DNA of 64,000 bases from Nipponacmea schrenckii (taxonomy: Eukaryota > Mollusca > Gastropoda > Lottiidae), in NCBI GenBank assembly GCA_030562195.1, contig JAUJPP010000003.1, forward strand, positions 34,044,602 through 34,108,601. Reading direction: 5' to 3'. The position numbers and the translations under genes were made by a program. Positions 6,201 to 63,805 of this stretch are shown piece after piece. The notes below the pieces were generated by a model, which did no database searches, was not told where the DNA came from, and saw only the letters and a list, made by a program, of their open reading frames with translations. Numbering within the stretch: position 1 is the first letter of the stretch; every line of letters begins with the position of its first letter.

Positions 6201-9200
6201 GCAAATATAAAATATATCCAAATCTTCGTCATTCCCTAACATATGAAAAACCTTAGATTAAACTGTTATCACTAGATAAGTCCAATCCATATCACCTGTC
6301 TGTTAAATTGCAGTCAAACCTGGTGCCTTATATTGGTTCTGAAAGTGATACAGGTATAACTAAATAATTGGACCGTGCAAGATAGAAGTGCAATTAGAAG
6401 AACTGGAAAGAATATCCTAAACAATAGCAAAGTAAAATTAATGTACCTCTTGCAGTCCATCTGGTGATCTTCTAATCAAAGACTCAGCAGAAAATAAACA
6501 GGACTCTACTTTATCACCATCTTCAGAACCAATCAACCCTTCCATACAGTCTCTTATATATTTAGGTGTTTTGACTTTACTTGTTTTAACATCATTAGAC
6601 ATATCATAGGGCTCTAGATCATCATCACTGTAAAGATAACATATTGTAGAGCTCTAGATCATCATCAGTGTAAAAATAATATATCATACAACCCTTAATC
6701 ATCATCACTGTAAGTATAACATATCATAAGGCTCTAGATTATCATCACTGTAAAGATAACATATTGTAGGGCTCTATATCATCATCACAGCAAAGATAAT
6801 ATATCATAGGGCTCTAGATCATCACTGTAAAGATAGCATATCATAGGGATCTAGATCATCATCACTGTAAAGATAACGATAACATATCATAGAGCTCTAG
6901 ATCATTATCACTATAAAGATAACATATCACATGGCTCTAGATCATCATCACTATAAGATAACATATCATATGTCTCTAGATCATCATCACAATAAAGGTA
7001 ACATATCATAGGACTCTACATCATCATCATCACTGTAAATATAACAAATCAAAGAGCTCTAGATCATCATCACTGTTAAGATATCAATTCATAGGGATCT
7101 AGATCATTATCAATGTAAAAATAACATATCATAGAGCTCTAGATCATCATCACTGCAAAGATAACATATCATATGGCTCTAGATCATCATCACTGTAAAT
7201 ATAACATATCATAGAGATCTAGATCATCATCACTGTAAAGATAACATATCATAGAGCTCTAGATCACCATCACTGTAAAGATAACATATCATAGGGATCT
7301 AGATCATCATCACTGTAAATATAACATATCATAGAGCTCTAGATCATCATCACTGAAAAAATATAACATAACAGAGCTCTAGATCATTATCACTGTAAAG
7401 ATAACATATCATAGAGCTCTATATAGATCATCATCACTGTAAAGATACATATCACAGAGTTCTTGATGATCATCACTGTAAAGATAATATATCATAAGGC
7501 TCTAGATCATCATCACTGTAAATATAACATATCATAGGGCTCTAGTCACTATAAAGATAACATATCATAGAAATCTAAATGACCATCACTCTAAAGATAT
7601 CATATCACAGAGCTCTACTCTAGATCATCATCACTGTAAAGATAAAATATCATAGAACTCTAAATGACAATCACTCCAAAGATATCATATCACAGAGCTC
7701 TAGATCATCATCAAAATGTATCAGAGATACAAAATTTATCTTTATATTACTCCTTTTTAGGCTATAAGACACCAAATAAAATTTGTATCATACGATGTAG
7801 CCTACTCACCTATCTAACTCTTCTAGTTGGTTTTCTTCTTTTATATTTCCTGTGATTGCCTCTGTGTCTATGGCACTTCCATTTTCTGATTCTTCTGGTA
7901 CTACTCTGTAAAATAAATCAACCTATCACAAGACAAGATGTTATAATGTTTTACAGATATATAATTCAAATCAGGGTACAATATCTGCTAACTCTTGGTA
8001 TTTTGTCAATGGGATTGTCTAAAACTTTGATGTGGATTTTCAGGAACTACAAATGTCTGATTGAAAATTGGAATGGAGTGAATTGATGCTATCAGTGTTC
8101 CCAAAACACATAAAATATTTAGAAAACCTCTTTACAATCCCTTTAATTTTATAAATAAGGAAAACCACATTGCAGATAATCAGGTTGGTTAAAAGCCTTG
8201 AGTTTCTGGATTGTTTTGACAAATTATTCCTTACTTAAAGAACACTGTCACTTTTCATACATGTGTACAGGTCACAAAATGCCGTAAAATATCAGGAGAT
8301 TGGGTGAAAAATCGGTAGATTGTAGTGTAAATTTATGAATTTTGAAAATAAGGACATAAAGTTCTGTTCCCAACCTTCTAAATTTAATGTTACTTTTTCC
8401 AAAATTGTAATTCATGACCTCTCCCAGCCATTAATTGCACAGAGAGAAAATAAAAGTTTTCCAATACTCAAGTAACAAAACTATAAAAAGCTCACTTCAA
8501 GAAATAAATCACTAATACATTTTATTATGATACCAAATTTAACTATACCTCAATTGTTCAGGAGGTTCTTCATCAGGAATTTTTAAATGTGACAACAGAT
8601 CTTCAATTTCACTTGTTTTTTCATACTGAAAGTATTTAACAGTGTATAAGAATGTAAAATAAACTAAATCTAAATAAAGGGACAGGTTTGTTCCCTGGTT
8701 GATCAATCATTAATATTGTTCACTGTTCATCATTAAAATTTGAGCCTTCAAATCCATTTCTGTCCAGAATTATTCACGTTTGAATTTTAAAATATTGACT
8801 GAATGTTTAAAAATATTCAAGACTCAAATCAACAGCCAGATACTTGATAACTTTACATACCTCAAATTGTAGTTGAGGACCTGTAGGATCTAGAGCAGAG
8901 GTTATTGTTTCTGCTACAACCATACCTAGTGATCTTAACTTATAATCTGGACTACCAATATGACATTCTACTGCTTTCATTAATATTCTTATATATTCTA
9001 CAATTTAAACAATAAAAAATTATTGTTCGTAAAAATGATGAATATTTCTAGAAATTCCATTTACAACAAAGCTGTATAAGTGTAAGAAAATATAATGTAG
9101 AAATTCAAATTTGTAGTATATTGCTTTGGTGACTTTTCAGCTTGTATCTCTAACTTGACTTTGTCAACCAGTAACAGTGGCAGAGAATTATCTAAATAGA

Positions 9201-62200: not shown

Positions 62201-63805
62201 ATCTATGTCAATCAGTAATATAATAAATAATCATCAGATACATGAATATTTATCTCAATCTGTGATATAATAAATAATTGGCTGATACATGGGAATTTGT
62301 CTCAATCTGTAATATAATAAATCATCAGATATATGAATATTTATCTCAATTTGTTATATAATAAATTATCAGCTGATACGTGGGAATTTATCTCAATCTG
62401 TAATATAATAAATAATCAGCTGATATGTGGGAATTCATCTCAATCTGTAATATAATACATTATCAGCTGATACATGGGAATTTATCTCAATCTGTAATAT
62501 AATAAATAAGCAGCTGATACATGAGAATTTATCTCAGAAAGTGTTAATAAGACAACAAAAAAAGATCTGTTTCATTCTGTTTGGTACTTCAGATATAACA
62601 TTCATTGGGTTCAGAAGACTCCATATATGGCTGTAAAGTCTATTACAAGAGGTAAGGATATTTCCTGGCTAAGATTGTTTTGCACTATATTTATTCAAAC
62701 CTCCATTGGCATTGATAGTGAATAATATATTACAGAAGACAACAAAATTAATGGGCTAGAGACATACATTGAATATGATACCACACGGAGGTTAATATTT
62801 CAGTTTAAAAGTAAATCATATTGCACTTTCATATTATCATTGCTTTATAATCACCAGTGACCTATTTAATACACCAATAACATAGAAATTCTATAAATAG
62901 TAACATGGCCTATTTATCACACCTCAGCAGCAAGCTTCATTCTGATTGGTCCCATGTCGACCTCATTCAGTATGTCGTTTTCTGATTGGATAATTGCTAG
63001 CTTCAAGGATTGTGACATCACCACACAAGAAATGGCCATTTTAGATTTTAAGCAGTCTTCCATTTTCTATCTAATTTTCAAAAAATAAAGACTTAAATCG
63101 ATTTGATTCAACGTGACAACTACAAATCTGTGAAGATCAAGTCTCCAGCTATAAAATGCAACCAAGACCGAAAATGTATCATTTTTCTGGTATTTTCAAT
63201 AATTTGCCGAATATATCCACTATTTCGCGGCGATTCTTAGTTTTTCCGTCACTTACCAAGTTACTGTAACTTCTGAAATGTTCGCGGCCTTCCCAATCAA
63301 CTCTTTTCGGTAAAAGCTGGAAAAATGAAAAAGTTCATGAATGGAAATTTTTTGTCAAATGCAACAAAAACTATAAATCTGACAAAATAAAACAAAAATA
63401 TTACAATAGCCCCTCAAAATAATTAAATATTTAAGCCGAAAATATCGAAAAAGAGCGTCAAATTTTACCATGCAAAATACAGTGAAATTTCAACGTACCT
63501 TGTTCTCTTCCAATTCTTGTAATAAAACCTGAAAAACAAAGCAAAATGTGTTCAACTCTTATAACATATAAGTTCAATCAACAAATTAATGAAACAATAC
63601 ATACCTCTGAGGTCTTTTTACAGGGTCCATTCGACAGAAAACGGGCGATCAAAAAATACAATTCTGAAAAAGAAAAGTCCAAAATTGAGATCTCGCTTCG
63701 ACATTTGGTCAACAGATTTCCCCCTTTCAGAGACTTCCCACTCTAAATATTTTTACCTGATTCGATAGAAGGCGTGTTTGAATTCGAAGAACTTGGTCGA
63801 GCCAT
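38293..63805 (-). CDS. PHIP: PHIP/BRWD-family protein: WD40 propeller, cryptic Tudor, two bromodomains
   Basis: A chromatin reader; relatives serve as substrate receptors of CUL4-DDB1 ligases (DCAF14 and fly BRWD3). Exons: 63757-63805, 63605-63663, 63499-63528, 63257-63316, 59151-59301, 58746-58841, 57874-58034, 55120-55341, 54776-54876, 54094-54265, 52371-52510, 52018-52174, 51413-51547, 50016-50144, 49578-49803, 49053-49307, 48501-48642, 48024-48114, 46672-46815, 46396-46439, 45877-46126, 45221-45451, 44836-44960, 44559-44641, 44127-44238, 43379-43714, 42868-42993, 42447-42552, 41851-41988, 40482-40634, 39856-40135, 39491-39607, 38293-39182: 5511 nt, 1836 aa (human PHIP about 1821). Start: ELYFLIARFLSNGPC; WD40 about 180-555; DEQTQQAPHLMPPPFLVD; acidic/basic linker about 855-938 with an Asp run; cryptic Tudor (WWLGTIVSQEPFQ, LSPWDMELI); bromodomain 1 about 1180-1275 (FPSYAIVIEYPIDLSTIKAR); bromodomain 2 about 1320-1420; Ser/Lys-rich tail ending SSRGRLRKPTAKARATLY. 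PHIP, BRWD1 and BRWD3 cannot be told apart here, so the symbol is nominal. Confidence 0.94.
41436..41588. mobile_element. Near-perfect foldback element
   Basis: The left arm gtagaaccgcacttaagtgt with ctataggttttcaatattgc and gggcttggcgtagtg is inverted at cactacgccaagccc...gcaatattgaaaacctatag and ending gcggttctac. The arms are about 65 bp around a loop of about 25 bp. It lies in an intron and was probably inserted recently. Confidence 0.88.
45570..45690 (+). mobile_element. 5'-truncated SINE copy
   Basis: Matches the last about 120 bp of the SINE at 28465-28839 (ctgctgtccttgcaaaattt ... gtaaaactccattcatttca). The tRNA head is missing. Confidence 0.8.
47090..47815. repeat. Dispersed repeat with ACGGACGG core, two units
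   Basis: Two related segments end near 47372 and 47815. Each has accaagtttcattg..., gtggccacaagcaattgtgg, a run of acgg, cagggtcaaccgcaatatac and atccacattatatgtgggc. The palindromic-like terminal catccacattatatgtggg is shared. The same family forms the array at 55480-57478. Confidence 0.8.
50164..51200. mobile_element. Non-autonomous DNA transposon with 13-bp terminal inverted repeats
   Basis: The left end tagggttaccaga (50164-50176) is inverted at the right end tctggtaacccta (51188-51200). Subterminal aaaccgggacatt and gtcccggtttttccgggac occur at both sides. The body is AT-rich with no transposase. The locally GC-rich left portion (50215-50300) differs from its surroundings. No clear target duplication was found. 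It lies in a PHIP-gene intron. Confidence 0.75.
52511..53977 (-). repeat. 56-bp minisatellite made of the exon 11 splice acceptor
   Basis: About 26 copies. On the coding strand each unit is aatatttacag followed by the first 45 bases of exon 52371-52510 (gatcgtgttgacagtatagc, atacagtaatcatagtgtta, atttt; codons DRVDSIAYSNHSVNF). The array abuts the real acceptor on the intron side. A higher-order pattern of several units also repeats. 56 is not a multiple of three. Confidence 0.95.
55480..57478. repeat. About 170-180-bp tandem array of the ACGGACGG dispersed family
   Basis: Eight or more units share ccagaattccaggaattttt, accaaaatcgataggggtct, accaagtttcaagaaaatcc and ctacagtgtccacaaacaat. The last unit ends with repeated gaccgacg and acaatatacgtccacatttc with tatgtgggcgtataaaaa. 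It lies in the intron between PHIP-gene exons 7 and 8. Confidence 0.9.
58345..58704 (-). mobile_element. tRNA-derived SINE, third long copy
   Basis: Same family as 9957-10313, more diverged: tail aaatgaaatgaaatg at the left, head gggagccaccttggctcagt on the minus strand at the right. It lies in a PHIP-gene intron. Confidence 0.8.
59302..62535 (-). repeat. 44-47-bp minisatellite made of the exon 5 splice acceptor
   Basis: About 70 copies over 3.2 kb. On the coding strand each unit is ttatattacag followed by attgagataaattcccatgt and atcagctgattatttatta, the true acceptor and first 39 bases of exon 59151-59301 (codons IEINSHVSADYLL). A second unit type (ataaatactcatgtatctga) is mixed in as higher-order blocks. 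The array abuts the exon on its intron side. Confidence 0.96.
62536..63256. other. Rest of PHIP-gene intron 4, nothing recognised
   Basis: Ordinary AT-rich intron between the minisatellite and exon 63257-63316. No repeat family or RNA gene is seen. Confidence 0.5.

Follow-up and report, generated by a model that had tools for sequence, protein, structure and literature searches.

The window analysed here, a stretch of 64,000 nucleotides (nt) from the limpet Nipponacmea schrenckii, carries the genes TELO2 and PHIP/BRWD, both on the minus strand, and within their introns four minisatellites that each repeat the acceptor and the exon start they adjoin. Four such arrays in these two genes had been claimed in an original prediction, and their presence was borne out by Tandem Repeats Finder (TRF) together with a scan for copies of the splice junction. 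In all four arrays the repeat unit spans the intron-exon boundary, which is the mark of the structures known as “mirages” in lancelets. We propose, with a probability of roughly 75%, that each array was founded by a duplication of the junction, was tolerated through splicing at the last copy and was enlarged neutrally by unequal exchange.

Four tandem arrays in TELO2 and PHIP/BRWD

The window was placed at C3:4418266-4482265 of an assembly of 399 Mb in 1093 contigs. The gene finder used, our own, over-predicts, and only exons backed by homology or scoring at least 14 were retained. The joined TELO2 exons showed 87% identity to the Lottia gigantea protein and 63% to that of Patella vulgata, with 54% of the query aligned, while the joined PHIP/BRWD exons showed 80% identity to L. 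gigantea over 99%, values that suggest a limpet near Lottia yet distinct from L. gigantea. Among the 50 exons of the window with homology support, two are weak (2680-2747 and 54046-54122) and were left out of the intron statistics; the introns of the two genes have a median length of 444 nt (46 introns). The exons and the arrays, denoted A1 to A4, are the following.

6447..6627, minus strand: TELO2 exon adjoining A1 (gene-finder score 21.8; 5 homologues; L. gigantea P0001), acceptor between 6627 and 6628
6599..7713, minus strand: array A1, TRF period 40, 27.7 copies; unit of 11 nt intron end and 29 nt exon start
9304..9445, minus strand: TELO2 exon adjoining A2 (L. gigantea and other homologues)
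9446..10740, minus strand: composite array A2, with 162 nt units at 9446-9866, an insert at about 9870-10330 and then remnants
52371..52510, minus strand: PHIP/BRWD WD40 exon adjoining A3 (DRVDSIAYSNHSVNF...; homologous proteins)
52466..53979, minus strand: array A3, TRF period 56, 27.1 copies; unit of 11 nt intron end and 45 nt exon start
54094..54265, minus strand: PHIP exon upstream of A3, ending ...EKICELEAHY|GTAAGT
59151..59301, minus strand: PHIP exon adjoining A4 (IEINSHVSADYLL...; homologous proteins)
59263..62536, minus strand: array A4, TRF period 47/91, 71.8 copies; alternating 47/44 nt unit of about 8 nt intron end and 39 nt exon start

The edges of A1, A3 and A4 reach 29, 45 and 39 nt into the exons that start, on the minus strand, at 6627, 52510 and 59301. 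Scanning 24 nt around the junction and counting as a copy any match at 17 or more of the 24 positions, we found 26, 4, 26 and 71 junction copies in A1, A2, A3 and A4, respectively; adjacent copies within the arrays matched at 79 to 93% according to TRF. The unit had been described as about 10 intron bases followed by the start of the next exon, which applies to A1, A3 and A4 (11+29, 11+45 and 8+39 nt); A2 departs from this description in being composite, with an insert, and in having an exon part of about 78 and not 84 nt. By TRF, A2 covers 9472-9866 (period 162, with 18 nt sub-repeats) plus an outlier at 10648-10686. Its 162 nt unit combines about 78 nt matching the start of the exon at 9445 with AT-rich 18-mers, and its insert resembles, by eye, a short interspersed nuclear element. 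The far copy of A2, at 10739/10740, is diverged and retains CTAG|GTTTTTGAG; the automated AG count for this array, 3 of 4 copies, is off in register by one base at that copy, which reads CTAG|G.

The units of the four arrays showed no mutual resemblance beyond that of shuffled sequences (P ≥ 0.1 for 6 of 6 pairs), in agreement with the claim of four separate amplifications. A1 occupies all except 96 nt of its intron (6628-7809), 114 nt of the A3 intron (52511-54093) and 684 nt of the A4 intron (59302-63220) lie outside the array, and the A2 intron minus its array measures 688 nt, or 185 nt if everything up to 10740 is taken as array. The arrangement is not universal, as the original prediction had also stated: the minisatellites near 1580, 16944 and 17721 run into no supported exon. 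A 34 nt minisatellite at 31801-32933, beside what appears by eye to be a reverse-transcriptase element, has a minus-strand unit with the donor-like GATCAG|GTGAGC and is a possible donor-side case. Elsewhere in the window, the minus strand at 19222-22006 holds a gene for a coiled-coil protein with a weak likeness to ODAD1 (E = 2e-4, 21 bits, under the Pfam cut-off of 27).

Choice of acceptor and the decoy copies

The arrays had been said to lie on the intron side, directly against the true acceptor, and the proteins of relatives do put the acceptor at the last copy. In protein alignments, residues 52 and 353 of L. gigantea PHIP begin at 59301 and 52510, residue 208 of L. gigantea TELO2 begins at 9445 and the TELO2 segment DDDLEPYDM aligns just inside 6627; at the 52510 border no insert was found in the proteins of Patella, Haliotis, Littorina, Crassostrea and Physella. 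Judged by these proteins, the authentic boundary in all four arrays is the copy adjoining the exon proper, as in mirages, and the conservation of the proteins suggests regular splicing of the mRNA.

The AG is intact in 20 of the 25 decoy copies of A1, 25 of 25 in A3 and 60 of 70 in A4 (21/26, 26/26 and 61/71 with the true copy counted), and among the 22 other dinucleotides of the unit 7, 11 and 6, respectively, are less intact than the AG. There is no sign that decoy AGs have been either purged or conserved; their variation matches that of the other unit positions, and the copies retain signals able to serve as cryptic sites, as in mirages. A stop codon stands between decoy and true donor for all 123 decoys and none reads open, therefore decoy use would break the message. 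Exon definition would let the spliceosome skip the 25, 3, 25 and 70 decoys of A1 to A4, and each acceptor would find its branch point in the exon-derived sequence of the copy before it; motifs of the form yTnAy precede the true AG by 36, 22, 14 and 17 nt in A1, A2, A3 and A4, respectively.

Origin of the arrays

We propose that a short tandem duplication across the acceptor junction would have founded each array. The duplication would survive because splicing is predicted to take only the exon-adjacent copy, and the remaining copies would then be intron, free to expand neutrally by unequal exchange. The intron-side position would need no special process, since the protein would be altered by any copies placed in the exon. 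Where A3 ends, farthest from its exon, the native intron meets AATATTTACAG|GATCG at TTTT, and the exon carries GTTAATTTT at the opposite edge of the unit; we infer that this join is the expected trace of a tandem duplication with microhomology. Copies of A3 are most similar at lags of 7, 8 and 15, a higher-order repeat that suggests exchange in blocks. As to age, SPMICYLYS precedes DDDLEPYDM in L. gigantea TELO2, and A1 units in the window read SPMICYIYS or SSMICYLYS in a shifted frame; a segment of this kind is absent from the TELO2 proteins of Patella and Gigantopelta. On these protein sequences A1 probably predates the split from L. gigantea, and the L. gigantea TELO2 gene model appears to include part of the repeat unit as an exon.

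Several observations weigh against this account. Splicing at the last copy is a prediction from protein homology, and yTnAy is a common motif in AT-rich DNA. In A1 and A4 the farthest copies lack an acceptor, so that the founding join is legible in no arrays but A3 and, in diverged form, A2, and likeness to the true copy shows no gradient with distance (rho -0.28, 0.22 and -0.04). Scored with a position weight matrix (PWM), 7 of 25 decoys in A1, 2 of 3 in A2, 14 of 25 in A3 and 3 of 70 in A4 equal or exceed the true acceptor, so that a first-AG rule would choose decoys. The choice in A3 must therefore depend on more than strength; exon definition, that is proximity to the real exon with its donor, could explain it. 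Finally, within the two genes acceptors are hit more often than random founding alone would lead one to expect. If arrays were founded at random in the 46 introns, each would fall at an acceptor with a probability of about 0.086, and at a donor with an equal one; in the two genes four of five minisatellites lie at acceptors and none at a donor (P = 2.5e-4, post hoc).

This last count favours a process specific to acceptors that repeatedly amplifies intron-exon borders, for example through breaks or R-loops at the T-rich tract before the exon, and the short intron parts of the units, similar in three arrays (11, 11 and 8 nt), point the same way. We nevertheless consider such a process unlikely. 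When the 4 other minisatellites of the window are included the count becomes 4 of 9 (P = 0.005), with 21 arrays sampled outside the window instead it becomes 4 of 26 (P = 0.18) and with both additions 4 of 30 (P = 0.25), the last two tests being conservative because the sampled arrays need not be in genes. Furthermore, mirages are found at both boundaries in lancelets, according to the relevant passages of PMC3087553, and a comparison of exon borders, made on small samples, gave an acceptor excess only locally.

In that comparison, segments from -10 to +40 at the borders of 85 window exons (50 homology-supported and 35 ab initio) and of 89 ab initio exons from a 190 kb sample of three contigs were compared with the adjacent 2.5 kb, a score of at least 45 being taken as a match. 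In the window the acceptor segment recurred upstream at 7 of 85 exons and the donor segment downstream at 3 of 85; on the wrong side the acceptor segment matched downstream at 3/85 and the donor segment upstream at 2/85, and mid-exon controls matched at 4/85 upstream and 3/85 downstream. Apart from the four arrays and a mid-exon match of the A2 exon, all window matches trace to the duplication of a 1.5 kb TELO2 segment. Because of this direct repeat (3055-4037 and 4558-5535, 99-100% identical, with a spacing of about 1.5 kb), two TELO2 exons are present twice, as is the beginning of a third, whose upstream copy is truncated within the exon; a mirage of two copies whose unit was very long would have the same layout. 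None of the 89 sampled exons showed a credible mirage. Their matches, 2 on each of the six measures, are confined to three open reading frames that lie within in-frame arrays (C1a 37709, C2a 37110 and C3a 9533), which were not accepted as gene exons. Three further sampled arrays with high exon-edge scores, C2a 27272 (19.0), C3a 49586 (18.6) and C3a 46708 (16.6), were judged by eye to be a dispersed repeat family (reading DGRTDGRTD) that is present at window positions 47390 and 56141 too, and sampled exons in repeats of this type, likewise a reading by eye, were excluded from the test. A dispersed repeat with periods of 145-485 nt, seemingly common in the genome, occurs at 47390-47698 and 56141-57405 as well as in the sampled stretches of contigs C2 and C3.

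Genome-wide, three tandem copies of the acceptor-like TTTACAG were counted 2831 times and the backward motif 1092 times. We rejected this 2.6-fold excess as support for an acceptor process, as neutral motifs of the same composition span 1092 to 3880 (1092, 1440, 1868, 2023 and 3880) and the count is ordinary among them (z = 0.7); tandem donor-like GTAAGTA was counted 4282 times against 6214 for its backward reading. Array densities were obtained at the start of contig C1 by clustering, by eye, among the matches listed, namely the first 100 places per motif, and all density figures refer to these. TTTACAG formed 8 arrays in 5.47 Mb (1.46 per Mb), which is denser than two neutral motifs (0.29 and 0.52 per Mb; P = 0.003 against both pooled) and in favour of the acceptor process, whereas GTAAGTA formed 5 arrays in 2.11 Mb (2.37 per Mb; P = 0.0009 against the first neutral motif), and is thus at least as dense. 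Within the same 5.47 Mb the acceptor motif had 8 arrays against 3 and 2 for the neutral motifs (P = 0.11 against 3). As single motifs, TTTACAG occurred 73 times, GTAAGTA 35 times and the neutral motifs 37 and 70 times in 229 kb of unmasked sequence; unequal background frequency is therefore not the reason for the difference in array density. These figures, based on 8 and 5 arrays at the start of one contig, hint that arrays with splice signals of either kind are enriched; among the matches listed there is no genome-wide excess of acceptors over donors, and the acceptor preference that the original prediction took to be general is not established. Two candidate mirages were seen on this contig: a tandem acceptor-like unit of 43 nt (TTTACAG|GATGGTACAAACTTATTATAAAATG...) at C1:1345955-1346047 and a donor-like motif recurring every 43 nt at C1:455170-456543.

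Selection for decoy acceptors, also suggested by the prediction, would have them kept, for instance, for regulation through unproductive splicing. A1 apparently goes back at least to the divergence from L. gigantea, and the stops met from every decoy are a requirement of such regulation; the decoy AGs, however, are no better conserved than the other dinucleotides of the unit, and strong donors are few (3, 9, 0 and 2 donor-like sites scoring above 4 within A1, A2, A3 and A4), which makes this explanation less probable still than an acceptor-specific process. That the arrays are artefacts of the assembly is very improbable. The A1 and A3 stretches do recur on the same contig, at C3:34051048-34052401 and C3:34096901-34098901, offset by exactly 29,626,336 bases, with 100% identity along 4354 and 2001 bases. 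The constant offset suggests a duplicated assembly segment, probably of at least 46 kb; this second copy is identical to the window stretches and hence provides no second haplotype. However, adjacent copies are alike at only 79 to 93%, which an assembler would not invent, and the A1 unit is apparent in the L. gigantea TELO2 protein.

Junction duplication followed by neutral growth is thus the origin that we prefer. As a wider and tentative idea, which we regard as possible though somewhat doubtful, both ends of limpet introns may be recurrent birthplaces of minisatellites, where an intron of about 100 nt could grow tenfold, its acceptor moving to exon-derived branch points while dozens of near-identical acceptors are bypassed.

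Relation to known boundary repeats

The original prediction implied a novel structure, but it is that of the lancelet mirage. The pertinent passages of PMC3087553 and PMC3902484 describe mirages in Adh, globin, troponin C and PGBD5 as tandem duplications across the intron-exon boundary, at acceptors and at donors, with decoy AG/GT signals, normal splicing and homogenisation of the tandem-repeat type; the PGBD5 study (PMC3902484) reports like structures and cites Adh and troponin C. The limpet arrays resemble the mirages so described (Adh3, BflGb6, BflGb9, troponin C and PGBD5) in their boundary-spanning units and decoy signals, and by this analogy they belong to the known kind and fit its mode of action. 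They differ in phylum, in size, with 26, 26 and 71 copies in A1, A3 and A4 compared with 3 and 6 units in BflGb6 (as given in that part of PMC3087553), and in position, all four lying at acceptors whereas the lancelet examples described there lie at both boundaries. Among the matches listed in a literature search, which covered few subscription journals, there was no report of mirage-type structures in molluscs. What is new here is the mollusc host, the much larger arrays and the age of one of them, which probably predates the divergence from L. gigantea; mirages are thereby extended from lancelets to a mollusc, with one array indicated to outlive a species split. With up to 70 near-identical acceptors before the one used, the arrays are natural constructs in which exon definition could be tested directly against scanning for the first AG. 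They also give a warning that gene models can take a repeat unit as an exon, as L. gigantea TELO2 appears to show.

Other boundary repeats are related less closely. Human variable internal tandem repeats at exon-intron boundaries, in genes of segmental duplications, alter gene structure and, in the sections of PMC2812944 concerned, may make new introns or lengthen exons, whereas in the limpet no new intron was seen. Two green algae show a raised density of tandem repeats close to intron-exon junctions; the corresponding part of PMC3887541 reports this excess and does not state whether a splice site lies within the units. A tandem genomic duplication in the potato RNA-dependent RNA polymerase (RdRp) gene, as outlined in PMC4974935, copies splice signals and so gains an intron, whereas in the limpet an existing intron grows.

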